From the NCBI GenBank assembly GCA_003222055.1, contig QHUT01000064.1, forward strand, positions 1-59,672: a DNA stretch of 59,672 nucleotides. The letters are read 5' to 3'. The notes under the pieces are model-generated. The model was given only the letters and a program-made list of their open reading frames with translations. It did no database searches and had not been told where the DNA came from. Positions 1-24,976 of this stretch are shown here, piece after piece. Origin of the DNA: Gemmatimonadota bacterium (lineage in GTDB: Bacteria > Gemmatimonadota > Gemmatimonadetes > Gemmatimonadales > GWC2-71-9). Position numbers and translations under genes: made by a program. Numbering within the stretch: position 1 is the first letter of the stretch; every line of letters starts with the position of its first letter.

Positions 1-152
1 GCCCGGGCGCGTGATCCGCCATTCCTGGCGCTTGATCCGCGCTTGACTCCCTCACGCGTCATTGAGGCGCGTGAAGGCCCGGGCGCGTGATCCGCCATTC
101 CTGGCGCTTGATCCGCGCTTGACTCCCTCACGCGTCATTGAGGCGCGTGAAG
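1..152. repeat. Perfect 76-bp tandem duplication at the window edge
   Basis: Bases 1-76 and 77-152 are identical with no mismatch. Copy 2 contains the TTG start used by the RCC1 lipoprotein gene; in copy 1 the same start runs into another frame because 76 is not a multiple of 3. A perfect duplication exactly at a sequence end is typical of an assembly artefact, but a recent real duplication cannot be excluded. Confidence 0.9.
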
Positions 153-1934
153 CGCAACAGTCCCGTACTCCTGGTCCTGTCGGTTCTCCTCCTCGCCGCG
201 TGCGGTGGCGACGGCGGTGGACCCACCGGACCGACCGCTAATGCCAGCGGCGCCTTCGTCTTTCGGGAAACGCTTGCCGACCAGGCCGACGCGATCAGCT
301 GCAGCGATCGGGGAGCGATCACGATCGCCCAATCCGGGGCGAGTTTCACAGGCACCGTCACACAGACAGGAACCTGCGTCGGACCGGCCGGCTCGGCGGA
401 CAACTCCGGCTCGAGCACCATTTCGGGCCAGGTGACCGGCACCGCCATCGAGTTCCGCATGCCGGGGTGCCTGTATCAGGGGCGCGTCGGGGGTGATCCC
501 ATCAACGCCGCCGTCGGCACGCTCTCCTGCACCACACAACAGGGCGGGCACACCTTCGCGTTCGCCGGGGACTGGCAATTCTCGAGCGGCGTGGCGTCCG
601 TCACCATCACCCCGAAGCCCGCGGGCGTAGAATCCGGTGACACGCTGCGGCTCACCGCCGAGCTGCGCGACGCGGCCGGCAATCTCATGTCTGGCCGACG
701 AGTCACCTGGACCAGCTCGGCACCCGGCGTCGTGGCGGTGGATTCCACCGGTCGCGTGCGGAGCGTGGCCCTCGGTCCCGCCGTCATCACGGCAACATCG
801 GTCCCGGTCTTTCCGTTCGAAGACCCGCAAAGCGACTCCGAGACGGTCCGGGCGTACGTGGTCTTCACGTCCGTCAGCGCGGGTGACAGTCACACGTGCG
901 GCGTCACCACGCGACACGCCGCGTATTGCTGGGGATGGCAGCTGGACGGCCGCCTGGGCAACAACACCCCCGGGAGCGACTACCAAACGATCCCCTCTCC
1001 CGTGTTCGGCGGCCTGGTATTCTCCTCGGTGAGTGCCGGGGTCCGCCACACGTGCGGCATCACGACGGATCAGGCCGCGTACTGCTGGGGCCGAGTATCG
1101 GAGGGCGAGCTGGGCAATGGCTCGACCACGGTGTTTGCGGCCGCCCCTGTCCGGGTGTCCGGAGATGTCTCGTTCTCGTCCATCAGTGCGGGCCATGACT
1201 ACACCTGCGCGATCAGCGCGAGCGGCGCGGCGTACTGTTGGGGGCTGAACGACCGGGGCCAGCTGGGCGACGACACGTACGTCAACCGCGCCACCCCGGT
1301 CCCCGTCTCGAGCGTCCTGACCTTCACGGCGATCAGCGCGGGACGCGGTGATCCCGGAGCCCACACCTGCGCGATCACGACCACGGGGACGGGCTCCTGC
1401 TGGGGTCAGGGGTTGGGTGGTCAACTGGGCCGGAGTGACGGGCCGCCGAACGTTCCGGGTCCCGTCGCGGGCGGGCTGAGCCTCGGGTCCGTGACGACCG
1501 GGGGCGAGCATACTTGCGCCGTCGACGCGACCGGCGCCGCCTACTGCTGGGGCTCGAACTTCGTGGGCCAGCTGGGCGACGGCGTGACGTACGGCACCGG
1601 GACGCCCACGGCGGTCGCGGGCGGGCTCACGTTCACGTCACTCACCGCCGGAGGGTCGGTCACCTGCGGCGTCACGACGGCGAGCGCGGGCTACTGCTGG
1701 GGTGGCGGACAGCTCGGGACGGGCGTGCCCCCCTATGTGGCGCAAACCACGCCCGCCCCGGTCCTCGGCGGACTGACGTTCACGTCATTGAGTGCCAACG
1801 GCATCAACGATCACATCTGTGGGCTCACCACGACCGGGCTGGTCTACTGCTGGGGACGCGGGTTCGAGGGTGAGCTCGGCAACGGCTCCACGGTCGACCA
1901 GCCGACCCCGGTGGTGGTGAGCGGCCAGCGATGA
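138..1934 (+). CDS. RCC1-repeat lipoprotein with an Ig-like domain
   Basis: A 598-residue exported lipoprotein. The signal peptide ends in the lipobox LAAC (Cys22) and is followed by a Gly-rich linker. Residues about 150-225 resemble a Big_2 bacterial Ig-like domain (SGDTLRLTAELRDAAGN, then a VAVDSTGRV segment). Residues about 240-598 hold seven RCC1-type blades, each with a paired-cysteine signature of the type HTC...YCWG, so each blade could carry a disulfide in the periplasm or outside the cell. Start TTG at 138 is the furthest start that keeps the basic signal-peptide N-terminus; GTG at 147 is an alternative. The stop overlaps the next lipoprotein start as ATGA, implying translational coupling. 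The function is probably a surface or adhesion beta-propeller, but this is inference. Confidence 0.85.
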   Translation: MRRVKRNSPVLLVLSVLLLAACGGDGGGPTGPTANASGAFVFRETLADQADAISCSDRGAITIAQSGASFTGTVTQTGTCVGPAGSADNSGSSTISGQVTGTAIEFRMPGCLYQGRVGGDPINAAVGTLSCTTQQGGHTFAFAGDWQFSSGVASVTITPKPAGVESGDTLRLTAELRDAAGNLMSGRRVTWTSSAPGVVAVDSTGRVRSVALGPAVITATSVPVFPFEDPQSDSETVRAYVVFTSVSAGDSHTCGVTTRHAAYCWGWQLDGRLGNNTPGSDYQTIPSPVFGGLVFSSVSAGVRHTCGITTDQAAYCWGRVSEGELGNGSTTVFAAAPVRVSGDVSFSSISAGHDYTCAISASGAAYCWGLNDRGQLGDDTYVNRATPVPVSSVLTFTAISAGRGDPGAHTCAITTTGTGSCWGQGLGGQLGRSDGPPNVPGPVAGGLSLGSVTTGGEHTCAVDATGAAYCWGSNFVGQLGDGVTYGTGTPTAVAGGLTFTSLTAGGSVTCGVTTASAGYCWGGGQLGTGVPPYVAQTTPAPVLGGLTFTSLSANGINDHICGLTTTGLVYCWGRGFEGELGNGSTVDQPTPVVVSGQR

Positions 1935-4333
1935 AACGCACCCTGGCAGCCGGCCTGCTGGCCGTGGCGCTCGGCTGCAGCCACGAGACCGCCGGACCGA
2001 ATCAATCGTCGATCACGGCGACCAGCGTCGCGCCCCACCTCGACAGCCTCAAGTTCATCAGCGAGGCGGTCCGCTTGGTGGCGATCTCGCGGACGTCGAG
2101 CGATACCACCGCCGGGATCTACCGCTGGCGCGTGAGCGACACGACGGTGCTCTCCGGCACGCTCGTGGCCCCCGACACATTCGTCGCGTTCGCCCGGGCC
2201 GAGGGGAGCGCGGTGGTACGCGTGTTCGAACTGGGTGGGACGCGCGATTCGGCGGTGATCGTCGTCCGCCAGCAGACGGCGCAGGTCAGGGTCACACCCC
2301 TGCTCGCCTATCGTGCGTGCCCGGTGGGGCTCACGGCGGTCGCCGTGGACTCGGGCGGGACGCCCGTGGCCCATCACGTGAGCGTGACGCTCGTGTCGCG
2401 CGCCCCCGCGCTCGCCACGATCGACTCCACCTTCCTGCTCTCGCCGCGCGCGGCGGGGCTCGACACGATCGTGGCCACAGCCGAGGGCGTCTCGACACCG
2501 ACCGTCTTTCGGATCGACGCCGCGCCCGTCTTCCAGGTGGGGAACACGCCCTTCAGCACGATCGTGATCGGCGCGACGCAGCTCGCCGTGCTCACACCAC
2601 GGGCCATGACCACCACTGGTGCGCCCATTACGCTGCACTTCCAATCGAGCGACTCCGCCGTCGCCCGACTGCCGGTCACGGCTGTCGCCGTACCGCTTGG
2701 GTACCAGGTCCCGCCCGGGACGGACGTCGTCGGGCTCGTGCCCGGGACCGCGCTGGTGCGCGTCATCGCCTGCGACGTCCTGAGCGATTCGGTGACCCTG
2801 CGGGTGACGACGCCCAAGTTCCTGCTCTCCGCAATACCGTCGGGCGCCCGGACGGACGACCGCCCCTCGCGCGTCGAGGTGGACATCGGGGACTCGCTCG
2901 GCGCGTTCGGGTCGACGTTCGCGCCGCTCACCGTCCACGTGTCCGCCACCGACACCGCGGTCATCCATCCCGACTCGGCCTATATCCATGTGCCCGCCCG
3001 GACCTACGCGACCGCCAGCGTCGTGACCTGGGCGAGTCACGGCACCGCGCGGGTCGTGTTCACGGACTCGGCCGGCCGATATCCGCCCGACACGAGCGGG
3101 CCCGTGTCGGTGAGCTTTCCGCCGCTCTTCCTCTCCGTGGTGCGGGATACCATCGCGCTCGGCATGCGGCAGCGGCGCTCGATCGATCTGGGAGTCGACC
3201 GCACGGTGACAGGGGCGCCACTGGTGGTGCACGTCGCCGTGAACGACACGACCGCGCTCATCGAATCCCCCGCGACCCTGACCATGCCGGTGGGGTCGAC
3301 CGGCGGCCCGCCCCTCGTCTTCACCGGACGGGATACGAGCGGCGTGGCTACCATCATCGCGACCGCATACCGCCACGAGCCCACCGCAGTGACCGTCCGG
3401 GTCACCCGTCCCCAGTTCGGCGTCGGGGCCCCGGTGTCGGGCATCCCGCACTATCCCGGCGAGCCCCCGGGCGACGTGATGGTGGGTGCGGGCGATTCGC
3501 TCGACGCGCTCAGCTATTCGGGCGCCGGCGCCCCTATCGAGAATGTGACCGCCGACATCGTGTCGTCGAACCCGAGTATCGCGTCGCTCGATTCGACCAG
3601 CCTCACGATCCCCGCGGGCCAGGGGCCGTCGGGGACGGCGCACCTCTCGTTCAATGCGCCCGGCAACGTGACGATCACCGCGACGGATCCGCGCTCCGCC
3701 TACTACCACTATGGCACTGGGACCTCTGCCACCGTGGTGATCGTGCCGAAGCGCCTGGTGTTTTCGGATTCCGTGATGCTGTTGGGCATCGGGCAGTTCT
3801 GGTCGGACGCCGTGTTTCTCGAGGGCCGGATCGCGACGGACCTGGTGGTCTCCCTGAGCCACACGGCGTCCGCCGTGGCCACGCTCGATCACCCCATCGA
3901 CACACTGTTCAGCACGGGGCCATCGGGGCCGGTCGCGCTCCACGGACTCGCGGCGGGCGTGGACACGGTGGTCGCCACGGCGAGCGGCTGGCTCCCCGAC
4001 ACGTTGCCGGTGAGGGTCGGTCCCGGAACCGTGGTCCTTTGGGGGTGGCCGAGCGCGCTACGGCAGGGGGATTCGGCCCAGGTCTCGCTCCAGGTGGGCG
4101 ATCAGGCCGGGGAGGGGCGGCTGGTGGACGCCGCCACCACGTTCACGCTGGCGCCGAACGGCAACATCGTGTTCACCAGTGCGCCGGGCGTCATCGGCGC
4201 CATCACCGTCCCGGCCAAGAACCAGGGCACGGGCTACTTCTACGTCAAGGCCGTCGCGCCCGGGACGGGGACGGTGAACATCACGAACGCGAGCTACCAG
4301 CCCTACTCGAACTCGGTGTCGGTGACGCCGTGA
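1931..4333 (+). CDS. Large Ig-like (Big) repeat lipoprotein
   Basis: An 800-residue lipoprotein with lipobox ALGC (Cys16). The rest is almost entirely beta-rich. Repeated segments of roughly 90-100 residues carry recurring patterns such as VRVT...P and SSD/TAVARLP, and valine-, threonine- and serine-rich strands, which is what tandem bacterial Ig-like domains look like. No catalytic motif is visible. The gene overlaps the RCC1 lipoprotein by four bases (ATGA), so the two are made together and may form one surface complex. Individual domain borders cannot be set by eye. A convergent peptidase gene lies about 100 bp downstream. Confidence 0.75.
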   Translation: MKRTLAAGLLAVALGCSHETAGPNQSSITATSVAPHLDSLKFISEAVRLVAISRTSSDTTAGIYRWRVSDTTVLSGTLVAPDTFVAFARAEGSAVVRVFELGGTRDSAVIVVRQQTAQVRVTPLLAYRACPVGLTAVAVDSGGTPVAHHVSVTLVSRAPALATIDSTFLLSPRAAGLDTIVATAEGVSTPTVFRIDAAPVFQVGNTPFSTIVIGATQLAVLTPRAMTTTGAPITLHFQSSDSAVARLPVTAVAVPLGYQVPPGTDVVGLVPGTALVRVIACDVLSDSVTLRVTTPKFLLSAIPSGARTDDRPSRVEVDIGDSLGAFGSTFAPLTVHVSATDTAVIHPDSAYIHVPARTYATASVVTWASHGTARVVFTDSAGRYPPDTSGPVSVSFPPLFLSVVRDTIALGMRQRRSIDLGVDRTVTGAPLVVHVAVNDTTALIESPATLTMPVGSTGGPPLVFTGRDTSGVATIIATAYRHEPTAVTVRVTRPQFGVGAPVSGIPHYPGEPPGDVMVGAGDSLDALSYSGAGAPIENVTADIVSSNPSIASLDSTSLTIPAGQGPSGTAHLSFNAPGNVTITATDPRSAYYHYGTGTSATVVIVPKRLVFSDSVMLLGIGQFWSDAVFLEGRIATDLVVSLSHTASAVATLDHPIDTLFSTGPSGPVALHGLAAGVDTVVATASGWLPDTLPVRVGPGTVVLWGWPSALRQGDSAQVSLQVGDQAGEGRLVDAATTFTLAPNGNIVFTSAPGVIGAITVPAKNQGTGYFYVKAVAPGTGTVNITNASYQPYSNSVSVTP

Positions 4334-6176: not shown

Positions 6177-7769
6177 ATGAGCGCGTTCAGTACGAAGCGA
6201 CGCACGCTGCTGCTCTCGCTCGCCTCCGCGATCGCGGCGTCCCTCGTCGTGACCGTACGAAAGCTCGTGCAGTACGCGGCGGCGCCCGTCGGAGAGAAGG
6301 AGTCCGACTTCGTCTTCCCGCCCTCCACGGACCAGACGCCGCCGACGAGGATCGCGCCGCGCCCGGCGTACCCGGCCCTGCCGTTCGAGCAGCGCGGCGG
6401 CTTCATCAACGATGCCAGCTATCTCAACCGCACCGCCGTCTACGGCGTCGTCAAGGTCACAAGCGAAGCGGACGTCGCGAACGCCTTGCAGTTTGCCCGG
6501 GAGAACGGCCTCAAGGTGACCGCCGCCGGCCAACGGCACAGCATGGGTGGGCAGACGTTCGTCAAGGGCGGTCTGGTGCTCGACATGCGGGGGCTGAACA
6601 GGATCACGCTCGACAAGGCCAAGAAGATCGTGAACGTGCAGAGCGGCACGGTATGGGCGGACGTGCAGCGGGTGCTCGACGGGGAGGGGTTGTCGGTCAA
6701 GGCGATGCAGTCGATCAACATCTTCAGCGTGGGCGGCACGCTGAGCGTGAATGCGCACGGCATCGCGCACCGGCCCGGTCCGATCGCGCCAACCGTCAGG
6801 GCGCTGCGGGTCATGCTGAGCAACGGAGACGTGATGACCGCGACCCCCACGCTCAACGCCGAGCTGTTCCGCCACGTGCTCGGCGGGTACGGATTGTTCG
6901 GCGTGATCCTCGACGTGGACCTCGACGTGGCCGACAACGAGATGTACGTGCGACGCACGAGCTATGTGGACTACCGGGAGTTCGCGGACTATTACAAACA
7001 ACATGTCGACGGCAATGATGCGGTCGGCCTGGTGTACGGGCGTGTCTCGGTCTCCCCCGCGACCTACTTGCGCGAAACGGCGATTCACGTCTACGAACGC
7101 ACGGGATATAGCGGCCGCATTCCACCGCTCACGGCCCACACCCACGACGCGCTCGAGCGCCTGGTGATCAACTTCTCCAAGACCGGAGGCCTGGGCCGCC
7201 GCGTCCGCTGGGCACTGGAGAAGAGCCTCGAGCCACGGCTGCACGCATGTGTCCCGCGCAACCAGGCGATGACCCCCAAGGACGGCTGTCTCGTGTCCCG
7301 CAATCAGGAGATGTACGACTCGATGCACTACCTCGAGAACCGCCTGCGGGACACGGACATCCTCCAGGAGTATTTCGTCCCCTACGACAAGATGGGCGCC
7401 TTCGTGGACGGCTTGAGAACCGTCGTCCAAAGGACCGCCGCCAACCTTCTCAATGTCACCATCCGCGTCGTTCACAAGGACAACGTCACGGCGTTGCCCT
7501 ACGCGAAGCAGGACATGTTCGCCCTGGTGTTGTATTTCAATCAGCGATTCAACGAGGCGGAGAGTCTCGTGCTGCAGCAGACGACCCGGGACTTGATCGA
7601 CGTCGTCCTGGGCGTCGGCGGCACGTACTACCTGCCCTACCAGCTCTTCTATTCACCCGAGCAACTCCGGCGCGCGTACCCGGAGATCGACGGCTGCTTC
7701 GCGGCGAAGCGGAAATACGACCCGATTAGCCTCCTCACAAACAAGTTCCACCACAAATACGGGACGTGA
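6177..7769 (+). CDS. FAD-dependent oxidase (VAO/PCMH fold), exported
   Basis: A 530-residue flavoprotein of the FAD_binding_4 (VAO/PCMH) family. The N-terminus has a twin arginine (TKRRTLLLS) followed by a hydrophobic stretch, suggesting Tat export of the folded, flavinylated enzyme. The FAD domain starts near residue 85 (YGVVKVTSEADVANALQFAR). AAGQRHSMGGQ is the segment that usually carries or packs the flavin-linked histidine, and GGTLSVNAHG follows. The C-terminal region (about 330-530) is the substrate cap, and the very C-terminus resembles sugar-lactone or alditol oxidases (FHHKYG). The substrate cannot be named. The gene stands alone, with a Nudix gene 38 bp downstream on the same strand. 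Confidence 0.8.
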   Translation: MSAFSTKRRTLLLSLASAIAASLVVTVRKLVQYAAAPVGEKESDFVFPPSTDQTPPTRIAPRPAYPALPFEQRGGFINDASYLNRTAVYGVVKVTSEADVANALQFARENGLKVTAAGQRHSMGGQTFVKGGLVLDMRGLNRITLDKAKKIVNVQSGTVWADVQRVLDGEGLSVKAMQSINIFSVGGTLSVNAHGIAHRPGPIAPTVRALRVMLSNGDVMTATPTLNAELFRHVLGGYGLFGVILDVDLDVADNEMYVRRTSYVDYREFADYYKQHVDGNDAVGLVYGRVSVSPATYLRETAIHVYERTGYSGRIPPLTAHTHDALERLVINFSKTGGLGRRVRWALEKSLEPRLHACVPRNQAMTPKDGCLVSRNQEMYDSMHYLENRLRDTDILQEYFVPYDKMGAFVDGLRTVVQRTAANLLNVTIRVVHKDNVTALPYAKQDMFALVLYFNQRFNEAESLVLQQTTRDLIDVVLGVGGTYYLPYQLFYSPEQLRRAYPEIDGCFAAKRKYDPISLLTNKFHHKYGT

Positions 7770-7807
7770 AACACCCTTGGATCGAGCGTTAGGGAAGCGA
7801 TAGAGCC

Positions 7808-8260
7808 ATGCACCCCCGCGACAACATGGCGTTCCGCTTTCCGATTTCGATCAAGGGCGTCCTGTTGCGCGAACAAGCGGTGCTACTCCTTAAGAACGAC
7901 CGGAATGAGTGGGAGCTCCCAGGCGGCAAGCTCGAGCTGGACGAAACGCCGGAGGAGTGCCTCAGGCGCGAAATCAGGGAAGAGACCGGTTTGGTTGTGG
8001 AGGTAGGACCCCTCTTGGACGTATGGGTCTACGCGATTGCTCCCGACGTACACGTCTTCATGGTCGCATACGGATGCTTACCGATCGCCCCCGATGCCGC
8101 CGTGCGTATCAGCGGAGAGCATCGCGAGCATGTCTGGGCAGGAGTCGACGACTTGAGGAAGATGAGCATCCCGCCGGGATATCTTCGGGGCGTGAGTGCC
8201 TGGATGGACGCCTCGCGAGGTGGCCCCCCTCCCAGACATCGTCGACCCTTCAACGCCTAG
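7808..8260 (+). CDS. Nudix hydrolase
   Basis: 150 residues with a complete Nudix box: GKLELDE, seven residues, then REIREETGL, matching GX5EX7REUXEEXGU. The glutamates of REIREE bind the catalytic divalent metal. Upstream, ISIKGVLLREQAVLLLKND is the usual first beta-strand pair, and WELPGG precedes the box. Such enzymes hydrolyse nucleoside diphosphates linked to another moiety; this compact form is often a housecleaning or sugar-nucleotide pyrophosphohydrolase. The start is ATG 7808; a second ATG seven codons in is possible. The natural substrate is unknown. Confidence 0.9.
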   Translation: MHPRDNMAFRFPISIKGVLLREQAVLLLKNDRNEWELPGGKLELDETPEECLRREIREETGLVVEVGPLLDVWVYAIAPDVHVFMVAYGCLPIAPDAAVRISGEHREHVWAGVDDLRKMSIPPGYLRGVSAWMDASRGGPPPRHRRPFNA

Positions 8261-8324
8261 GTGTTGCGCCATCATCAGTGTGTGTGGCGTGGACGCCTCG
8301 CCGCGCCACCGCGGCGACGCACGC

Positions 8325-9902
8325 ATGGCTCTCCTGCACTCGGAACGAGGGTTGCAGCAGGCGCCCGCACCAATCTTGACGTCGGGCACCTTGCGAACGT
8401 CCGCCGATTTGAGCCCCAACTGCGCATGGATGCTGTGGGACACCGCTGCCCGAGGCGGTGGCCGGGCCGCCGTGTCCGAACGCGGCGCCACGACGACCTA
8501 CGCCGCGCTGGTCGCCCGCGCAGCCGCGATCGGGCGTGCCCTCCAGACTGCCGGCGTCGCGCCCGGCGACCGCGCCGCCGTCTTCCTGGAACGGGGAGCG
8601 GACGCCGCGGCCGCGTTCTTTGGGGCCCTCGCCGCGGGCGCGGTGGTCGTGAACGTCAATGAGACCCTGCGCCCCCTCCAGGTGGAGCACATCCTGCGGC
8701 ACGCGGGCGCCCGCGCGCTCGTCACCACCGGGCGGCTGCTCACCAGGCAGCCCCGGCCGCTCGACGCCGACGTCGCACCCCTGCTGGTCGAGACCCTTCC
8801 GCCGGCCGCTTCGCTCGAGCCGGTGGAACGCATCGGGTCGGATGTCGCGGAGCTGATCTACACGTCGGGCTCGACGGGGCTGCCAAAGGGGGTCACGCTC
8901 AGCCACGCGAATCTCTGGGCCGGCACCCGTGCGGTCATCGGCTATCTCGGGATCACGGGGGACGACCGGATCGCGAGCCTCTTGCCCTTCAGCTTCGACT
9001 ACGGTTGCAATCAGCTGCTGTGCGCGGTGGCCACCGGCGCCACTCTGGTCGTCGAGCGCTCGTCGGTTCCCCAGCATATCGCGGCCGCGCTGCGTGCGTC
9101 GGAAGTCACGGTGTTGGCCGCCGTGCCGCCCCTGTGGCTACAGCTCCTGACGGCAGGCGAGTTCCGGTCCCCGCTCCCGGCCCTGCGGGCGATGACGAAC
9201 ACTGGAGGCTCGCTCCCCACCGACGCGGTCCGGGCGCTGCGACAGGCCCAGCCGCACGCCCGGCTGTATTTGATGTACGGCCTCACGGAGGCGTTCCGCA
9301 GCACGTATCTCCCCCCCGAGGAGGTGGACCGGCGGCCGGACTCGATCGGACGCGCGATCCCGGGCGCAGAGATCCTTGTGTTGCGCGAGGACGACACTCC
9401 GGCCGCGCCCGATGAGGTGGGCGAACTCGTGCACCGCGGCCCGACCGTGGGCCTCGGCTACTGGGACGATCCTGCCGCCACCGCGCGGGTGTACCGACCC
9501 CATCCGCTCCGCCCCAAGGGCACCCCGGACGCGGAGCGTGTCGTGTATTCGGGCGATCTGGTCCGCCGGGATGCGCAGGGCTTCATCTATTACGTAGGCC
9601 GCCGGGACCGCCTGCTCAAGGTGCTCGGCCATCGCGTCAGTCCCGACGAGGTCGCCGGCGCGCTGTATGCCTCGGGCGAAATTGTCGAAGCCGTCGTGAC
9701 CGGAGAGCCCGATGCCGCCATCGGCAATCGGCTGATCGCGCACGTCGTGCTCGCGCCGGGCGGGTCGCTCGAGCGCCTCCAGGGCTACTGCCAGGCGGAG
9801 CTGCCGCGTCACCTCCGGCCGGCCCACCTCGAGGCGCGTACCGAGCTGCCGCGCCTGCCAAGCGGCAAGCACGCGAGGCCGGTGCTCAGCGAGGGCGCAT
9901 GA
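8325..9902 (+). CDS. AMP-forming acyl/amino-acid ligase of a carrier-protein pathway
   Basis: ANL-superfamily adenylating enzyme. The P-loop-like core IYTSGSTGLPKGVTLSH, the adenine-binding MYGLTEAF, the aspartate of YSGDLVRRDAQGF, the hinge GRRDRLLKVLGHRVS and the C-terminal catalytic lysine in LPSGKHARPV are all present. It activates a carboxylate as an acyl-AMP and probably loads it on the carrier protein encoded 2.4 kb downstream. The frame is open from 8196, overlapping the Nudix gene. ATG 8325 gives 525 residues, close to the family norm, and ATG 8429 is also possible. The stop overlaps the aminotransferase start (ATGA), so this is the first gene of a tightly coupled four-gene operon. 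Closest recognisable groups are acyl-CoA ligases and DltA-like enzymes. The acyl substrate is not predictable by eye. Confidence 0.88.
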   Translation: MALLHSERGLQQAPAPILTSGTLRTSADLSPNCAWMLWDTAARGGGRAAVSERGATTTYAALVARAAAIGRALQTAGVAPGDRAAVFLERGADAAAAFFGALAAGAVVVNVNETLRPLQVEHILRHAGARALVTTGRLLTRQPRPLDADVAPLLVETLPPAASLEPVERIGSDVAELIYTSGSTGLPKGVTLSHANLWAGTRAVIGYLGITGDDRIASLLPFSFDYGCNQLLCAVATGATLVVERSSVPQHIAAALRASEVTVLAAVPPLWLQLLTAGEFRSPLPALRAMTNTGGSLPTDAVRALRQAQPHARLYLMYGLTEAFRSTYLPPEEVDRRPDSIGRAIPGAEILVLREDDTPAAPDEVGELVHRGPTVGLGYWDDPAATARVYRPHPLRPKGTPDAERVVYSGDLVRRDAQGFIYYVGRRDRLLKVLGHRVSPDEVAGALYASGEIVEAVVTGEPDAAIGNRLIAHVVLAPGGSLERLQGYCQAELPRHLRPAHLEARTELPRLPSGKHARPVLSEGA

Positions 9903-11077
9903 TCCCGGATGAGCTTGCGGTGCTGCTCGCGCCGCTCGAGACCTTCGAGGCGATCCGCCGCGACGTCGTGCACCTGGGCGATCGCCTGTGCGACTTCTCG
10001 TACGCGAACCCGTACGACGGGGTGGCCGAGTCCACGCGTGCCGTACTGGGAGAGGCGCTCGAGCAACGGCGCGCGCTGTCGCTCCAGTACAGTCCGTTCG
10101 GAGGTCAAACGCGTGCGCGCCGGGCAGTGGCCGACGCCCTGCGCCGGAGCCACGGGCTCCCCTGGTCGTACCGCGACGTAGTGCTAGCGCCGGGGGCCAT
10201 GGCCGGCCTGCACGTCGCGCTGCGTCTCGTGGGGCAGCCGGGCGACGAGGTGGTCATCCCCGTGCCCGCGTGGCTCGACTATCCATTGTACGCCCGCCAT
10301 CTCGGCCTGTCGCCGCTGCTCGTGCCTCTGGAAGGGCCGCAGTTCGACCTCGACGTGACGGCGCTCGCGGCGGCGATCACGCCGCGTACCTGTGCCGTGC
10401 TGCTGAGTCAGCCGGCCAATCCCACCGGACGCCACTACCCAGCCACCACCTGGACGGCCCTGGCCGACGTCCTGGCCGCGGCCGAGCGCCGCACCGGGAG
10501 ACCACTCACGCTCATCGCCGACGAGACCCATCGCGACTTCGTGGCGGGGGGGACGTTCTGCAGTCCGGCGGCTGCCTGGCCGGCGACGCTCATCGTGTAT
10601 TCGTTCGGGAAATACCACTTCCTGCAGGGGCAGCGCACCGGATACGTCGCCGTGTCGCCGCGGCATCCGCGTCGGGCGACGCTCGCCGACGAGGCGGTCC
10701 GCTGGAGTCGCATCCTGGGGTTCTGCACGCCGAATGCGCTCATGGAGTCCGCGGTCCCGGCGCTCCTGGCACTGCGCCACGATCTCGGGTGGCTCGACGA
10801 GCGGCGCGCCCGGACGGCGGCCTTCCTGCGCGAAGTGGGCTACGAAGTCGTCCCCGCCGACGCTACGCTGTTTCTGTACGTGGGGACGCCCGACGGGCGG
10901 GACGACTTCGAATTCACCCGTGAGCTCGCGGCGGCGGGCGTGCTCGTGCTCCCCGCCCCGGTGTTCCACCATCGGGGCTACTTCCGGCTGGCGCTGACCG
11001 CCTCGCGCGACATGTGCGAACGCGGTCTGGCCATCCTGCAACGCGCCGCGATGCGACCCGCGTGTTCCGGCTCGTAG
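9899..11077 (+). CDS. PLP-dependent aminotransferase, fold type I (class I/II)
   Basis: 392 residues. The order of motifs is that of the aspartate-aminotransferase superfamily: APGAMAGLHVALRLVGQPGDEV (cofactor phosphate loop), SQPANPTG (Asn that contacts the PLP ring), IADETHRDF (Asp pairing with the pyridine nitrogen) and YSFGKYHFLQGQRTGYV (the Schiff-base lysine in SFGK). It would make or consume an alpha-amino acid that the neighbouring ligase and asparagine-synthetase homologue could use. It is coupled on both sides by overlapping genes. It might alternatively be a C-S lyase-like member, since fold type I contains both. Confidence 0.88.
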   Translation: MIPDELAVLLAPLETFEAIRRDVVHLGDRLCDFSYANPYDGVAESTRAVLGEALEQRRALSLQYSPFGGQTRARRAVADALRRSHGLPWSYRDVVLAPGAMAGLHVALRLVGQPGDEVVIPVPAWLDYPLYARHLGLSPLLVPLEGPQFDLDVTALAAAITPRTCAVLLSQPANPTGRHYPATTWTALADVLAAAERRTGRPLTLIADETHRDFVAGGTFCSPAAAWPATLIVYSFGKYHFLQGQRTGYVAVSPRHPRRATLADEAVRWSRILGFCTPNALMESAVPALLALRHDLGWLDERRARTAAFLREVGYEVVPADATLFLYVGTPDGRDDFEFTRELAAAGVLVLPAPVFHHRGYFRLALTASRDMCERGLAILQRAAMRPACSGS

Positions 11078-12333
11078 ACGAGCTCGACCCAAACTTCGGG
11101 TGGGCGAACGGGCGCGTCGTCACCACGCCGCCCGATCAATACGCCCCGCTCGCGTCGGAGCCGCGTGGCGCCTACGCCTGCGTGGCCCGGGGGCCTGCCG
11201 GCGTCCAGATCGTACGGGACGCGCTCGGGATCAACAAGCTCTTCTGGGCGCGCCGCACCGACGGGGAGCTGCTGTTCGCGGCCCGGCCGCGTCACCTGGT
11301 CGAGGCGGGCTGTCGCTTCGAGGACATCTGGGCGGTGCCGCCCGGAACGGCGGTGCAGGCTGATCCGCCCCGGCGCACGCAGCGCGCGGTAGCGCCCGGG
11401 CCGCTGCCGGTCGCAGCCCTCGCCGTGCGAATCCGGTCCGAGCTCGACAGTTATTGCGCCGCTCTGGCCCGCGAGCTCGGTGACACTCCGGTGTATGTCT
11501 GCCTCTCGGGTGGCCTGGACAGCACCGGGATCGCCGTCGTGGCGCGGCGCCATCTGCCGGGGCTGCGCGCGGTGAGCTTCGATCTCGACTGGGCCGGGAG
11601 TGCGTCCAGTGGTGACCGGGTCACCGCCGCGCGGCTGGCGGCGGACCTGGGCCTGCCCTTGAGCCGGATCACGGTTTCCGCCGACGAGCTCCTCGGGCTG
11701 CTCGACACCGTGTTGTTGGAAGGCATCGACTGGCGCGATTTCAACGTGCACGCCGGGCTCGTCAATGCTGCGCTGGCGCGCGGGATCGCCCAGCTGCACA
11801 CGTCCGACACCACGGCACCAGTCGCGCTCACCGGGGACATCGCCAACGAGCTGCTCGCCGACTACCACGCCGAGCAGATCGGCGGGCGGACATTCTACGC
11901 CCTCCCCCGCGTCCCGCTCTCCCGGCTCCGCGCCGCCCTGGTCCGCGGCCTCGAAGCCTCGCACCGCGAAGTGGGGCCGTTCCGCGCCTGGGGCGTACGC
12001 GCGGTGCAGCCGTACGCCGTGGTCGTAGAGCACTACATGGCGCTGCCGGAGACTTTCCTCGGTCTCGCCGACCGCAAGCCCCGCCTGTGCCGAATGGTGT
12101 TCGGGGACGAGATTCCCGGCTATGTGTACGACCGTCCGAAGACGCGGGCGCAGGTGGGCGGTCGCGAGGACGGCGGTGTGTTGGGGCTGTGTCTGGATCG
12201 GGGGATCGACGGCCAGGTGCTGCGCGCGCGGTTCGCGGCGTTGCACCGCATCACCGACCCCGCGCTACTCTCACGCTTCATCTGCGGGGGGCGTTACCGT
12301 GCGGCGTTACCTGCCTTGGGTGGATCCACATGA
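11062..12333 (+). CDS. Asparagine-synthetase-like amide ligase lacking the glutaminase nucleophile
   Basis: About 423 residues from GTG 11062; GTG 11014 is an upstream alternative, and both overlap the aminotransferase. The C-terminal half is an AsnB-type synthetase domain: the PP-loop CLSGGLDSTGIAV binds ATP, and TGDIANELLADYH corresponds to the usual SGxGxDELFxGY. The N-terminal half keeps a shortened Ntn-type scaffold (VRDALGINKLFWARR, LLFAARPRHLVEAG), but no residue-2 cysteine exists, so glutamine-derived ammonia is unlikely. The same loss is known in beta-lactam or carbapenam synthetases and lasso-peptide cyclases, where adenylation drives intramolecular amide formation or ring closure. 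Because the operon also encodes a carrier protein, a small-molecule amide or lactam product is a reasonable inference, not a demonstrated one. Confidence 0.8.
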   Translation: MFRLVDELDPNFGWANGRVVTTPPDQYAPLASEPRGAYACVARGPAGVQIVRDALGINKLFWARRTDGELLFAARPRHLVEAGCRFEDIWAVPPGTAVQADPPRRTQRAVAPGPLPVAALAVRIRSELDSYCAALARELGDTPVYVCLSGGLDSTGIAVVARRHLPGLRAVSFDLDWAGSASSGDRVTAARLAADLGLPLSRITVSADELLGLLDTVLLEGIDWRDFNVHAGLVNAALARGIAQLHTSDTTAPVALTGDIANELLADYHAEQIGGRTFYALPRVPLSRLRAALVRGLEASHREVGPFRAWGVRAVQPYAVVVEHYMALPETFLGLADRKPRLCRMVFGDEIPGYVYDRPKTRAQVGGREDGGVLGLCLDRGIDGQVLRARFAALHRITDPALLSRFICGGRYRAALPALGGST

Positions 12334-12680
12334 CTCACGATCAGATCGCCGCCCGGCTGGAAGGATTCGTGCGGGGCCACTTCGGCGTGGCGCGCGACGA
12401 TCCCGCCTTCTCTCGCCGCGCCCACTTGTTCCAGGACGGGTACGTGGACTCGCTCGGAGTGGTCGAGCTGCTGGCGTTCATCCACGAGGAGTTCGGCGTG
12501 GAAGTCCCCGATGAGGCATTGGTGCCCGAGCGCTTCGAAACGATCGAAGACATCGCGCGGGTGGTCCACGGCCTCGTCGACGGAAGGGTGGACCGCGGTC
12601 TCGCGGACGCGCCTCCGGGTTCATTGCGCAGAGGAAGCTCACGGGACAGCGGCTTGGACGCCAGGAGAGCCGCCGGGTGA
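12330..12680 (+). CDS. Acyl carrier protein (phosphopantetheine-binding)
   Basis: 116 residues, starting at the ATG that overlaps the upstream stop (ATGA). The carrier fold is clear: helix 1 (QIAARLEGFVRGHF), the phosphopantetheine attachment motif GYVDSLGVVELL with Ser as the modification site, helix 2, then FGVEVPDEAL and FETIEDIARVV. The last 30 residues (Arg/Ser-rich) are a tail not needed for the fold. It is the fourth gene of the ligase-aminotransferase-amide ligase operon and is the likely acceptor of the adenylated acyl or aminoacyl group. Its stop lies 11 bp from the convergent VanZ-like gene. Confidence 0.88.
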   Translation: MTHDQIAARLEGFVRGHFGVARDDPAFSRRAHLFQDGYVDSLGVVELLAFIHEEFGVEVPDEALVPERFETIEDIARVVHGLVDGRVDRGLADAPPGSLRRGSSRDSGLDARRAAG

Positions 12681-12690
12681 CGGGTCCACG

Positions 12691-13983
12691 CTACCGGGCG
12701 ACGGATGCCGCCAACGCTTCCCCGTAAGGGGCGAACCCCGAGCGCCGCACCACGATCCAGCCGATCCCAAGCCCGGCGCACGCCACCAGGGCGTTCGTCG
12801 CGTCGAAGGTGCGATCCGCGATCACCACGTGTCCCAACTCGATCACACCGGCGAGCCACACTCCCGGCCACAGGTGCGCCCAGCGTCCCCTGAGACGCAG
12901 CGGCCAGACCGCCAGCAGGCTGCCGAGCGGCAGATACAAGAGGAACTGTTGCAGCACGTGCAGCGCGCTGAACGCGTCCACCCGCTCCGCCAGCGACGCG
13001 AGCGGAATGAGGTTCGCGGGCTCGAGCTGCGCGGCGATCGCGTGCACATCCGTCCGCGGCATGAACAGACGCCACCCCCACAGCACCAGCAGAGCGCCGT
13101 AGGCGAACACCACCGCGCGCGCCCGTGCCGCTCCGCGCAACAGCTGCGTCAGCGCCGCGAGTGCGCGATGCGCCGTCCACGCGCCCAGCGCCACGCCCGC
13201 CGCGCGCACGAGCACTGCTCCCCACCAGATGGGAAACCCCAGCATCCCGTGCCCCAGCTCCGCCACGAGCGCGAGCGCAGCCCCGGCACCCGCGACGCCT
13301 ACCCAGCGGGCGTCGCGCCCCCGCTCGCGCAACAGCATCACGCAGACAAATCCGGCCGGCGCGAACAGCAGCAGGTCGACCAGCGGGAGCGTGTCGAACG
13401 AGACGGGACCCGCGGCCTGAAACGCCGCGCCCAAGCGCCCGAGCGGTCCACCGGCGGTCCACGGCAGCGCACCCGGCCCGAACAGCGGTGTCAGTGCCTC
13501 GCACAACACCGCACCGCCGTACGCGGCGGCCAGCAGGAAGGTCGGCACGCCCAGGTACGACCGCGCCCCCTTCGCCGCCACGACCGCCGCGATCAACAAC
13601 GCGACCGCGGCCGCGCCCACGAGCGCGCCGAGCGTGTTGGTCGTGACGTCCACGATGCTCGCGGTCCGCACCGGTGAGAACACCTGCAGTCCTTCGACGG
13701 TGGCGCTCAGCGTCAGTCCGACGACCGTCGCCTGCCGGATCTCGGCGCGCACGTTGCCGGACCGGGACGTCACCACCCACACCGCCCCGAGCCCGGCGAA
13801 CAACACCGTGTTCCGCAATCCGTCGATCGCGTCCCGCCAGCCGAGGGATGGGGTGAAGGCGCGCGCCAGCCGCTCCGCGGCGGCCGAGAGGTCGGGAGAG
13901 AAATGAAGCTGGGTCAAGGTCGCGAGGAGGACGATCGCCACATAGCCCCAGCGCGCCGCGCGGAAGCGCTGCCCGGGCGTCAT
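12691..13983 (-). CDS. Membrane protein with two VanZ-like domains
   Basis: 430 residues with about ten hydrophobic segments. Two copies of a VanZ-like pattern are visible. Near residues 45-130: DGLRNTVLFAGLGAVW, then VEGLQVFSP and a SIVDVTTNTLGALVG motif. Near residues 315-415: PANLIPLASL, LHVLQQFLLYLPLG, then GVIELGHVVIADRTFDATNALVA. VanZ domains occur in glycopeptide-tolerance proteins and in polysaccharide or teichoic-acid loci, but their chemistry is undefined. The gene converges on the carrier-protein operon with only 10 bp between stops, so it is not co-transcribed with it. Confidence 0.75.
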   Translation of the reverse strand: MTPGQRFRAARWGYVAIVLLATLTQLHFSPDLSAAAERLARAFTPSLGWRDAIDGLRNTVLFAGLGAVWVVTSRSGNVRAEIRQATVVGLTLSATVEGLQVFSPVRTASIVDVTTNTLGALVGAAAVALLIAAVVAAKGARSYLGVPTFLLAAAYGGAVLCEALTPLFGPGALPWTAGGPLGRLGAAFQAAGPVSFDTLPLVDLLLFAPAGFVCVMLLRERGRDARWVGVAGAGAALALVAELGHGMLGFPIWWGAVLVRAAGVALGAWTAHRALAALTQLLRGAARARAVVFAYGALLVLWGWRLFMPRTDVHAIAAQLEPANLIPLASLAERVDAFSALHVLQQFLLYLPLGSLLAVWPLRLRGRWAHLWPGVWLAGVIELGHVVIADRTFDATNALVACAGLGIGWIVVRRSGFAPYGEALAASVAR

Positions 13984-13999
13984 GCGCGAGCGGGCACGC

Positions 14000-16189
14000 T
14001 CAGCTCACCACACGCAGCTGGTCTTTGACCGGGAGCTTCCGGATCCGCTTCCCTGTCGCGGCGAAGATCGCGTTCGCCACCGCCGGCATCACGCACGACG
14101 TGCCCGGCTCACCCACGCCCCCCGGCGCTTCCGTGCTCGGCACGAGATGCACCTCGATCACCGGCGCTTCGTTGATACGCAGCATGCGGTAGTCGTTGAA
14201 ATTGTGCTGCTCGACGCGCCCGCCCTTGATCGTGATCTCGCCGAACAGGGCGCCCGTCACGCCGAATACGATGCCGCCCTCCATCTGCGCTTGGACCGTG
14301 TCGGGATTGACGATCGTGCCGCAGTCGACGGCGCACACCACGCGCGTCACGCGTACGTCGCCCTGAGGCGACACGGCGACCTCCGCAACCTGCGCGATGT
14401 AGCTCCCGAAAGCGTGCAGCAGGGCCACGCCGCGCCCGCCGCGCGGGGCCAGCGGCTGTTCCCACCCCGCCTTCTCGGCCGCCAGGTCGAGCACGGCCTT
14501 CGCTCGGGGCGAGCGGTCGAGCAGCGCCCGCCGGTACGCGACCGGATCCCGCCGCGCCGCCGCGGCCAGCTCGTCGATGAAGCTTTCCACGACGAAAATG
14601 CTGTGGGTCGGCCCCACACCGCGCCAGAACGCGGTGGGAATCCCCGGCGGCTCCTGCCGCACGTACTCGACGCGGATGTTGGGCAGCTCGTAGGGCGGCT
14701 CCACCGCCCCCTCCACGGCGTCCGTGTCGAGGCCCTTGATCGAGGCCATCAGCTGGTGCAGGCCCAGCGCCCGGATCACCCGCAGGTTCTTGGGGAACAG
14801 CTCGCTCGACACACGCGCCAAAATCGACGAGCCGGCGACGCGATGCGTCCACGCGACCGGTTTGCCGCCGGCATCGAGACCGGCCGCGATCCGGTCGTAG
14901 TAATAGGGCCGGTACATGTCGTGCTGGATGTCTTCTTCGCGGGTCCACACCACTTTCACGGGCCCGCTCACCTGCTTGGCGATCTGCACCGCCCGGACCA
15001 CGAAGTCCACCTCGAGGCGTCGGCCAAACCCGCCGCCCAGCAGGTGATTGTGCACGCGCACCTGGCCGCGCGGCAGCCCGGTCAGCTTGGCGGCCGCGGT
15101 CTGGGTGAACGTCGGCACCTGGGTGCCCAGCCACAGGTCGCAGCCGTCCGGCCGCACGTGGACGGTGCAGTTCACCGGCTCGAGCGTGGCGTGCGCGAGG
15201 AACGGCAGCTCGTACACGGCCTCGATTTTTTGCGCCGCGCCCGCCATCGCCCCCGCGACATCGCCCTCAGCCCGTGCGACCACGCCTGGCCTCTGCGACG
15301 CTTCGGCCAGCGCCCGTACGATGTCCGCGGTGCCGAGGCCGGCGTTCGGCCCTTCATCCCAGCGGATGTCGAGGGCAGCGAGGCCCTGCTTGGCGGCCCA
15401 CATGTGATCGGCGACCACCGCCACCGCGTCCTCCAGGCGCACGATCTGGCGCACCCCCGGAATGGCCTTGGCCTTCGCGTCGTCGACGCTCGCGAGCTTG
15501 CCGCCGAACACCGGACACGCGGCGAGCGTGGCGACTTTCATGTCCGGGAGTCGCACGTCGATGCCGAACTGCGCCGTGCCGTCGACCTTGCCGGGAGCGT
15601 CCACCCGCTTCGCCGGCGTGCCGATCAGCCTGAAGTCCTTCGGGTCTTTGAGCGGCACACGGCCCCGCACCCGCAGCGTGGCCGCCTTGTCGACCAGGGC
15701 GCCGTACCCGAGGGTGCGATTCGTGGGAGCGTGAATCACCTTCCCCCCCGCGGCGTGGCACGAGGCCGGATCGACGCTCCAGGTCGCCGCCGCGGCGGCG
15801 ACGAGCAGGCTGCGTGCGCTCGCGCCAGCGCGGCGCAGCGGCTCCCAGTTGCCGCGCACCGACGTCGATCCGCCCGTCTCCTGCACGCCGAACAGCGGCT
15901 CCGCGTACCGGGCGTCGTCGGGGGGCGCATGCTCGAGCCGTACGTCGCCCAGGTCCACCTCCAGCTCCTCGGCCAGGAGCATCGACATCGACGTATAGGT
16001 CCCTTGTCCCATTTCGACCTTGTGCATGATCAGCGTCACGCGGCCGTCGCGGTCGATGCGAATGAATGCGTTGGGCGAGAACGAGGAGGGAGGCGGTGCC
16101 GGCAGCTCGAACCCAAGGAGCAGGCCCCCGCCGACGGCGGCGCTGATGCTCAGGAACTCCCGGCGCGACACACGCGGCCGGCGGGCCAT
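14000..16189 (-). CDS. Molybdopterin-binding subunit of a periplasmic aldehyde/isoquinoline-type hydroxylase
   Basis: 729 residues from the ATG at 16189. The N-terminus is a textbook Tat signal (SRREFLSIS followed by a hydrophobic run), unlike cytoplasmic xanthine dehydrogenases, and matches the IorB/aldehyde-dehydrogenase type. Recognisable segments are VEMGQGTYTSMSMLLAEEL (molybdopterin contact), LGGGFGRRLEVDFV, and the C-terminal GVGEPGTSC carrying the catalytic glutamate next to the Mo site. It hydroxylates an aldehyde or N-heterocycle and passes electrons to the 2Fe-2S subunit encoded one base upstream. The open frame continues to 16492, but that stretch overlaps the small-subunit gene and has no export signal. 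Confidence 0.9.
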   Translation of the reverse strand: MARRPRVSRREFLSISAAVGGGLLLGFELPAPPPSSFSPNAFIRIDRDGRVTLIMHKVEMGQGTYTSMSMLLAEELEVDLGDVRLEHAPPDDARYAEPLFGVQETGGSTSVRGNWEPLRRAGASARSLLVAAAAATWSVDPASCHAAGGKVIHAPTNRTLGYGALVDKAATLRVRGRVPLKDPKDFRLIGTPAKRVDAPGKVDGTAQFGIDVRLPDMKVATLAACPVFGGKLASVDDAKAKAIPGVRQIVRLEDAVAVVADHMWAAKQGLAALDIRWDEGPNAGLGTADIVRALAEASQRPGVVARAEGDVAGAMAGAAQKIEAVYELPFLAHATLEPVNCTVHVRPDGCDLWLGTQVPTFTQTAAAKLTGLPRGQVRVHNHLLGGGFGRRLEVDFVVRAVQIAKQVSGPVKVVWTREEDIQHDMYRPYYYDRIAAGLDAGGKPVAWTHRVAGSSILARVSSELFPKNLRVIRALGLHQLMASIKGLDTDAVEGAVEPPYELPNIRVEYVRQEPPGIPTAFWRGVGPTHSIFVVESFIDELAAAARRDPVAYRRALLDRSPRAKAVLDLAAEKAGWEQPLAPRGGRGVALLHAFGSYIAQVAEVAVSPQGDVRVTRVVCAVDCGTIVNPDTVQAQMEGGIVFGVTGALFGEITIKGGRVEQHNFNDYRMLRINEAPVIEVHLVPSTEAPGGVGEPGTSCVMPAVANAIFAATGKRIRKLPVKDQLRVVS

Positions 16190-20557: not shown

Positions 20558-21748
20558 ATGAACCGTTTGATCAAATCAGTCCTGTGGACCGCGGCTGTCG
20601 CGGTTTCAGTGCTTCTTGTCGGCGCGGCGGCGGCGCACCGGCGGCCCGCGGTCGCCCCGGCTGCCCCTCCGGCCCCTGAGGTGTCGGTGCTCACGGTCGT
20701 GCCCGAAACCGTAGCCGCCCGTTACGAGTACGTGGGGCAAGCCGCCGCCTCGCGCTCGGTCGAGGTTCGCTCGCAAGTCACGGGGGTCATCGTCGCGCGG
20801 CCGTACGCCGAGGGCACCGACGTCGCGAGGGGAACGCTGCTCTTCCGGATCGACCCGACCACGTACGAGGCCGCGTACCGCAGCGCCCAGGCCCGGCTCG
20901 CCAATGCGGACCGCACCTTGGCGCGGCTCAAGCCGCTGCTCGCGGCGCGCGCGGTGGCGCAAAAGGACGTGGACGATGCGCAGCAGGCTTTGGACCAGGC
21001 GCAGGCCGCGGCGGACCAGACCAAGAAAGACTACGAAGACACGTTCGTGCGCGCCGAGATCTCGGGGCGCGCGGGACGCGCGCAGCTGGAGCTCGGCGCG
21101 CGCGTGACCGGTCCGGGTGACCTGCTGACGACGGTCGAGCAGGTGGACCCGATCTACGTGAATTTCAGCCCGTCCGACGAGGACCTGTTGGGCCTGCGGC
21201 GCGACATCGCCGACGGGCGGCTGCTCATGCCGCCCGCGCCCCGCGCCCTCGCGGTTCAAGTGACGCTGGCGGACGGCAGTCTCTTGCCTGCAGCGGGCGA
21301 GCTGAACTTCGCCGACCTGGCGCTCCAGCCGGCGACCGGCACACTGCAACTGCGCGCACAGCTCAAGAACCCGCAGCACGTCCTGCTCCCCGGGCAGTTC
21401 GTGCGGGTCCGCCTGCTCGGCCTCAAGCGCCCGAGCGCGATTCTTGTCCCGCAACGCGCCGTGCAGCAGGGCCTGACCGGGGCGTTCGTCTACCTGGTGG
21501 GCGACAGCGATAAGGTCGCGGCCCGCAACGTCGTGGCCTCGTCCTGGGAGGGTGGGTCGTGGCTCATCGAGCAGGGGCTCCACGTCGGCGATCGCGTGGT
21601 CGTGGACGGGGTGCAGAAGGTCGCACCCGGGCAGCCGGCGCGGCCGGTGGCCTACCGACCCGCGCCCAATAGCGCTGCGGCCGGGCCCCAGGACAGCGCG
21701 TTGATCGCTCCTCCCGCAGCCCCCCTTCGCATCAGGAGCCGCCCGTGA
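20558..21748 (+). CDS. RND efflux periplasmic adaptor (membrane fusion protein)
   Basis: 396 residues. An N-terminal membrane anchor (VLWTAAVAVSVLLVGAAAAH, no lipobox) is followed by the barrel-sandwich hybrid or lipoyl halves (VRSQVTGVIVARPYAEGTDVARG and RAEISGRAGRAQLELGARV), a coiled-coil hairpin in between (AQARLANADRTLARLKPLL), the beta-barrel domain and a membrane-proximal domain. It bridges the inner-membrane pump and the outer-membrane channel encoded downstream, in the AcrA/MexA manner. The stop overlaps the pump start (GTGA), and a palindromic operator lies 44 bases upstream. Confidence 0.93.
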   Translation: MNRLIKSVLWTAAVAVSVLLVGAAAAHRRPAVAPAAPPAPEVSVLTVVPETVAARYEYVGQAAASRSVEVRSQVTGVIVARPYAEGTDVARGTLLFRIDPTTYEAAYRSAQARLANADRTLARLKPLLAARAVAQKDVDDAQQALDQAQAAADQTKKDYEDTFVRAEISGRAGRAQLELGARVTGPGDLLTTVEQVDPIYVNFSPSDEDLLGLRRDIADGRLLMPPAPRALAVQVTLADGSLLPAAGELNFADLALQPATGTLQLRAQLKNPQHVLLPGQFVRVRLLGLKRPSAILVPQRAVQQGLTGAFVYLVGDSDKVAARNVVASSWEGGSWLIEQGLHVGDRVVVDGVQKVAPGQPARPVAYRPAPNSAAAGPQDSALIAPPAAPLRIRSRP

Positions 21749-24975: not shown

Positions 24976-24976
24976 C

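Follow-up and report, generated by a model that had tools for sequence, protein, structure and literature searches.

In the vicenistatin system, the ligase VinN puts 3-methylaspartate on the free-standing acyl carrier protein (ACP) VinL, and VinO then decarboxylates it (PMC11284099). The VinN pocket has Asp230 for the beta-amine, a bulky Phe231 together with Ser299, and a loop that is one residue shorter and carries Lys330 and Arg331 (PMC11253843, a review of adenylation domains). Here we analyze a four-gene cassette located at 8.4-12.7 kb in a 59,672-nucleotide stretch of DNA (contig QHUT01000064.1, referred to as the window) from the 3.7-Mb draft genome of a soil Gemmatimonadota bacterium. 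The quartet consists of a ligase, a pyridoxal phosphate (PLP) enzyme of aminotransferase fold, an AsnB-type amide synthetase and a carrier protein, and we give an even chance to the proposal that it is a self-contained route building a modified aspartyl unit on its dedicated carrier protein in four steps. Every chemical step of this route and its product are predicted, whereas the parts, their conservation and linkage, the pocket residues and the loss of the glutaminase are read directly from the sequences. No description of the cassette or its product was found in the open-licence papers searched, and the libraries gave no match, in agreement with a preliminary description of this DNA, which did not recognise the set as a described pathway.

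The four genes touch or overlap and form one unit, as had been described. Two of the junctions are ATGA overlaps (9899-9902 and 12330-12333); the longer overlap near 11062 spans 16 nt (11062-11077), from the GTG start of the AsnB-like gene at 11062 to the aminotransferase stop codon at 11075-11077. All are on the forward strand. The products are a putative VinN-type, AMP-forming amino acid:carrier-protein ligase (8391-9902; Pfam AMP-binding at 256 bits plus the C-terminal domain, NCBIfam TIGR03098 at 502 bits, PDB matches and a pocket alignment), a fold-type I PLP enzyme similar to PRK06836 and aspartate aminotransferase (9899-11077; Pfam Aminotran_1_2, PDB profile, active-site columns, AlphaFold2 (AF2) and Foldseek), a truncated amide synthetase of the AsnB/beta-lactam-synthetase type whose glutaminase half is predicted not to work (11062-12333; Pfam Asn_synthase, family alignments, AF2 and Foldseek), and a carrier protein with the phosphopantetheine-site Ser in DSLG (12330-12680). 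A free carrier protein was proposed earlier; that this protein is dedicated to the set is supported by the Pfam PP-binding match and by G..DS being invariant in the family alignment. The ligase reading frame has starts at GTG 8196, ATG 8325 and TTG 8391. We consider TTG 8391 to be probably the true start, because an indel separates the window species from its nearest relative directly after ATG 8325; family homology begins only near 8403, and the previously given start at ATG 8325 is doubtful.

This nearest relative is L007, a soil Gemmatimonadetes metagenome-assembled genome, in which the cassette proteins are 88-95% identical. The ratio of nonsynonymous to synonymous substitution rates (dN/dS) against L007 was 0.09 for the ligase, 0.15 for the aminotransferase, 0.17 for the AsnB-like protein and 0.33 for the ACP; the cassette genes are under purifying selection. 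Chance open reading frames are ruled out by this dN/dS range, together with the homologues found in the same order in other phyla.

Using the AsnB-like protein as a query against about 85,000 species genomes, we collected 24 loci, to which one Kitasatospora plasmid was added; the loci, being gathered through this gene, are not a random sample. One profile was built per cassette protein, and gene order and strand were scored across the loci. The complete quartet, in the order ligase-PLP enzyme-AsnB-like-ACP on one strand, is present at 16 loci distributed over Gemmatimonadota, Actinomycetota, Myxococcota, Acidobacteriota, Planctomycetota and Rokuibacteriota. L022 and L028 are cut or broken copies outside these 16, and L008 and L021 carry three of the four genes. 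Within the order to which the window belongs, two of 201 genomes carry the cassette, as do two of 346 genomes of Streptomycetaceae and two of 331 in the phylum of L012; the latter two surveys returned only known copies, so the cassette is rare, and its distribution is patchy. Divergence among the four proteins runs in parallel: in a Mantel-type comparison of their pairwise identities, r was 0.70-0.90, a level that none of 2000 permutations reached. This fits inheritance and transfer as one unit, with common host ancestry adding to the correlation.

The best named family for the ligase is the exosortase A-associated TIGR03098 (501.9 bits; curated cut-off, 592.35). When the pocket region was searched against the PDB, the top eight matches were all beta-aminoacyl-ACP ligases, the first being VinN (3wv4, 100 bits), and the alignment with VinN is gap-free across the specificity loop (the shortened beta13-beta14 loop), Arg331 included. 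Among the cassette ligases, the equivalents of Asp230, Phe231 (as Tyr) and Arg331 are invariant, and position 299 is Ser or Thr; Lys330 of VinN is not kept and is replaced by Phe. By its pocket residues, the ligase is assigned as a VinN-type beta-amino-acid:ACP ligase, and we infer that its substrate is aspartate or a 3-substituted aspartate linked through the beta-carboxyl. In the first step, the ligase would adenylate this aspartate as a beta-amino acid and attach it to the carrier through the beta-carboxyl, so that the alpha-amine and the alpha-carboxylate stay free. As the pocket predicts aspartate, the cassette need not make its own amino acid. The earlier suggestion that the four genes make an amino acid, load it on the ACP and close or join an amide is partly supported: the carrier loading and the amide-forming logic are retained, and the supply of an amino acid by the PLP enzyme and the closing of a ring in the amide step are no more than possible.

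The PLP enzyme is nearest to 3ele and to bacterial aspartate aminotransferases, both by PDB profile and by Foldseek of the AF2 model (pLDDT 91.2). The PLP Lys238, Asp208 (equivalent to Asp222) and Arg363 (equivalent to Arg386) were found in 19 of 19 PLP enzymes, and the position of Tyr225 of aspartate aminotransferase is His in all 19 (His211 in the window). The equivalent of Asn194 is Asn in 12, Ser in four and Cys in three of them; 3ele retains both Tyr225 and Asn194 equivalents. The enzyme is possibly a plain transaminase, and a different reaction at C-alpha appears at least as likely because of the residue changes around the cofactor O3'. In the second step, the PLP enzyme, in which the Arg that grips the alpha-carboxylate is kept and His takes the place of Tyr225, would act at C-alpha of the aspartyl unit or supply that unit's amino group.

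Two alternatives bear on this step. The ordinary transaminase fold with its PLP Lys and alpha-carboxylate Arg would also suit an enzyme that converts a keto acid into the amino-acid substrate ahead of loading, with the AsnB-like enzyme amidating with free ammonia. We regard this as very unlikely: Asp, the predicted substrate, is available from primary metabolism and calls for no enzyme of its own, and the changes Tyr225 to His and Asn194 to Ser or Cys are atypical of transaminases. In the other alternative, the PLP enzyme would be an alpha-decarboxylase that replaces VinO and gives beta-alanyl-ACP, and the AsnB-like enzyme would replace VinM and cap the free amine with a second acid. Such a vicenistatin-like logic is suggested by the ligase pocket and the free-standing ACP, by the decarboxylase that adjoins the related exosortase-A ligase, and by the existence of fold-type I decarboxylases, CobD being among the weaker matches. 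It is nevertheless unlikely, given that both the sequence and the structure of the PLP enzyme resemble aspartate aminotransferase, with the alpha-carboxylate Arg kept, and that no polyketide synthase (PKS) adjoins the cassette; a scan of the neighbouring genes, both in the window and at related loci, showed neither a VinO-type decarboxylase nor a PKS.

In the proposed aspartyl route, the third step belongs to the AsnB-like enzyme. This protein starts about half-way into the glutaminase fold, and the N-terminal half is absent from all relatives with a complete N-terminus (the L026 copy is a fragment with an incomplete one). The glutaminase Cys2 is lost, as previously noted, and the loss is larger than claimed, with the N-terminal half of the domain gone family-wide. 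An alternative start cannot restore the glutaminase, because the DNA upstream is the aminotransferase gene. The synthetase loop SGGLDS is intact, again as described: the protein matches Pfam Asn_synthase, and SGGxDS is invariant in the family, as are DWRDFNVH, TGDxxNExxxDY, RExG and KxRAQ and, throughout the family, the PP-loop and Lys360. DWRDFNVH occupies the place of ETYDxTTxRAS of asparagine synthetase. In the motif alignment, AsnB position 348 corresponds to an invariant Asp (Asp259); this position is Glu in AsnB and Tyr in beta-lactam synthetase, where it is part of the catalytic Tyr-Glu dyad.

In Foldseek, the best match of the AF2 model (pLDDT 88.1, pTM 0.90) is 1mc1, a beta-lactam synthetase (E 2e-15; query-normalised TM 0.66), followed by AsnB. 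Because the synthetase half is intact, the glutaminase is lost and the fold is like that of beta-lactam synthetase and AsnB, catalysis is likely to be retained and glutamine is likely not to be the nitrogen source; the substrate also likely differs from those of the asparagine synthetase and beta-lactam synthetase types. Judged by fold and residues, the enzyme would adenylate a carboxylate and make an amide with an amine or with free ammonia, without glutamine. Its best structural match, likewise lacking glutaminase activity, could instead point to a lactam synthetase that performs ring closure on the amino acid, either ACP-bound or released, which we consider highly improbable since an invariant Asp takes the diagnostic Tyr348 position and the pyrophosphate/substrate loop is replaced by DWRDFNVH. 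Several named enzymes were considered separately. Asparagine synthetase B is ruled out by the missing Cys2, the incomplete glutaminase domain and a TIGR01536 score of 53.6 bits (cut-off, 267.1), and a strict beta-lactam synthetase by the Asp at the Tyr348 position. A lasso peptide cyclase was also rejected, since the window protein gave no NF033535 match; precursor peptides were not searched systematically.

The last step of the proposed route was considered from the neighbourhoods of the related loci. Acyltransferases occur in at least 13 loci carrying the AsnB-like gene, a count made without a formal background comparison: GNAT-type enzymes near the ACP in L011, L012, L015 and L030, GNAT and CysE-like enzymes in L014, L017 and L019, a CysE-like enzyme in L024, and GNAT enzymes in L009, L010, L016, L021 and L027. 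The gene adjoining the ACP in L014, L017, L019 and L024 encodes a CysE/EpsC-like hexapeptide acetyltransferase. A large polysaccharide-deacetylase protein is present in L005, L020 and L023, and deacetylases in L027 and L028. In L013 (Planctomycetota), a single-module C-A-T-TE nonribosomal peptide synthetase (NRPS; 11376-15893) directly follows the ACP, and a sigma factor lies upstream; the Kitasatospora cassette has an amino-sugar gene cluster and an ABC exporter nearby. Given that the cassette is flanked elsewhere by N-acyltransferases, sugar deacetylases, amino-sugar genes or, once, an NRPS, the carrier-bound product is probably used to acylate an amine. In the fourth step, an N-acyltransferase, or the NRPS condensation domain in the one Planctomycetota genome, would transfer the finished group to an amine, and this acceptor may often be an amino sugar freed by a deacetylase.

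Several observations weigh against the proposed route. No acyltransferase adjoins the cassette in the window, and searches of the surrounding genome for relatives of two acyltransferases that are linked to the cassette elsewhere, run without a positive control, were negative. Neighbour functions also vary between phyla. In L009, L010, L025, L027 and L029, the truncated AsnB-like gene and the ACP are accompanied by a full-length AsnB that replaces the ligase and the PLP enzyme, and no cassette-type ligase turned up in genomes G203 and G204; therefore, the AsnB-like step does not always depend on an aspartyl-ACP made in this way. The full-length AsnB is of the glutamine-hydrolysing type and resembles TIGR03108. 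This second arrangement falls at two places in the tree, so the truncated AsnB-like enzyme and the ACP form the constant core. It is often located within polysaccharide loci and occurs in Pelagibacteraceae as well.

The resemblance of this AsnB to TIGR03108, TIGR03098 as the best named family of the ligase, and the polysaccharide genes flanking L025, L027 and L028 would agree with the cassette being a variant of the exosortase-A-associated exopolysaccharide set that decorates a surface polysaccharide. We think this quite unlikely: the ligase is under the TIGR03098 cut-off and in a separate clade, the TIGR03099 decarboxylase holds the next position in the XrtA (exosortase A) loci scanned, and the Streptomyces and Planctomycetota copies are in secreted-metabolite-like contexts.

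Beyond the aspartyl route itself, we hold more tentatively, as possible but rather doubtful, that the cassette represents an unrecognised, horizontally spread pathway in which an aspartate tethered to the carrier by its side-chain carboxyl would be altered at C-alpha by an aminotransferase put to new use and then amidated by a new, glutaminase-free AsnB branch. The resulting N-acyl group, destined for sugars or peptides, would come from no described route. The data suggest that the AsnB family has an amide-forming branch, uncharacterised so far, which is coupled to a carrier protein and marked by an invariant signature of its own. They also point to a family of small cassettes, spread over many phyla, that may attach a group derived from aspartate to sugars or peptides.

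Other genes were noted around the cassette and its relatives. A NUDIX hydrolase gene (7808-8260, forward strand) lies immediately upstream of the cassette and is kept in the sister species L007, and a NUDIX gene also adjoins the Kitasatospora cassette; the enzyme is possibly an accessory that is not required. Elsewhere in the window, an RCC1-repeat protein with a Big_2 domain precedes a long lipoprotein-like protein that has no Pfam match (138-4333), and an RND efflux operon encodes a membrane-fusion protein, an AcrB-type pump and an outer-membrane factor (20558-26500). A single NRPS protein with a condensation domain was found in the window's genome, on contig C114 of G000 (7532-8854; open reading frame of about 1970 aa), and its co-occurrence with the cassette is unsupported because genus members without a detected cassette also have a condensation-domain protein. 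In two actinobacteria, FxLD-type/isoaspartate O-methyltransferase-like proteins, some of them large fusions, are near the cassette (L020:11701-17138 and L023:7504-10977), and a related fragment lies at the edge of L026. Another carrier-protein set, composed of an ACP, a full-length AsnB, a NadE-like PRK00876 protein and a related ligase, was seen at L039:5715-10572 and L037:3163-9333; this ligase is VinN-like with a KR loop in L037, which also has a PgaB-like deacetylase, and has Val for the key Asp in L039.

Compared with known systems, the cassette resembles DltA/DltC in having a ligase and a free carrier protein, but its pocket is of the beta-amino-acid type. No DltB- or DltD-like genes were found among its annotated or scanned neighbours, which rules out a Dlt D-alanylation pair. 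The XrtA ligase TIGR03098 has a nearly identical pocket (FDYG..Q, TNSGG, EAFRS) and also adjoins a PLP gene. It differs in having FDYGxSQ where the cassette has FDYGxNQ and in belonging to its own clade; a TIGR03099 decarboxylase is beside the ligase in 3 of 3 XrtA loci scanned, where the cassette has the aminotransferase-fold gene, and no truncated AsnB-like gene was seen in those short loci. An exosortase-associated set, one of the examples that the preliminary description had named as overturning its reading, is related through the ligase; membership in the exosortase-A set is ruled out by the cut-off, the separate clade and the partner gene. In the XrtA loci L040-L047, the TIGR03098 ligase has a VinN-type beta-amino-acid pocket. 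TIGR03098 and TIGR03099 are predicted from this shared pocket to be a pair converting aspartate to beta-alanyl-ACP, a testable guess for a gene set that NCBIfam names at the hypothetical-equivalog level only.

With beta-lactam and carbapenam synthetases, the AsnB-like enzyme shares the AsnB fold, an intact synthetase P-loop, the catalytic Lys and the absence of glutaminase activity, but it lacks the N-terminal glutaminase half, has Asp at the Tyr348 position and is partnered with a carrier protein. With asparagine synthetase B, it shares the PP-loop synthetase domain, the TG[D/E]xxxE motif and the C-terminal Lys, whereas Cys2 and the glutamine site are missing, Glu348 is changed to Asp and Asp351 to Asn, and ETYDxTTxRAS is replaced by DWRDFNVHCA. 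The likeness to vicenistatin VinN/VinL lies in the free-standing ligase with equivalents of Asp230, aromatic 231, Ser299 and Arg331 and a short loop, in the free-standing ACP, and in a PLP enzyme working alongside both. In contrast to that system, the PLP enzyme of the cassette resembles fold-type I aminotransferases, the place of the second adenylation enzyme is taken by an AsnB-type synthetase, and there is no PKS. We judge the cassette to be a variant of carrier-protein-based amino-acid activation that contains a new branch of the AsnB family.

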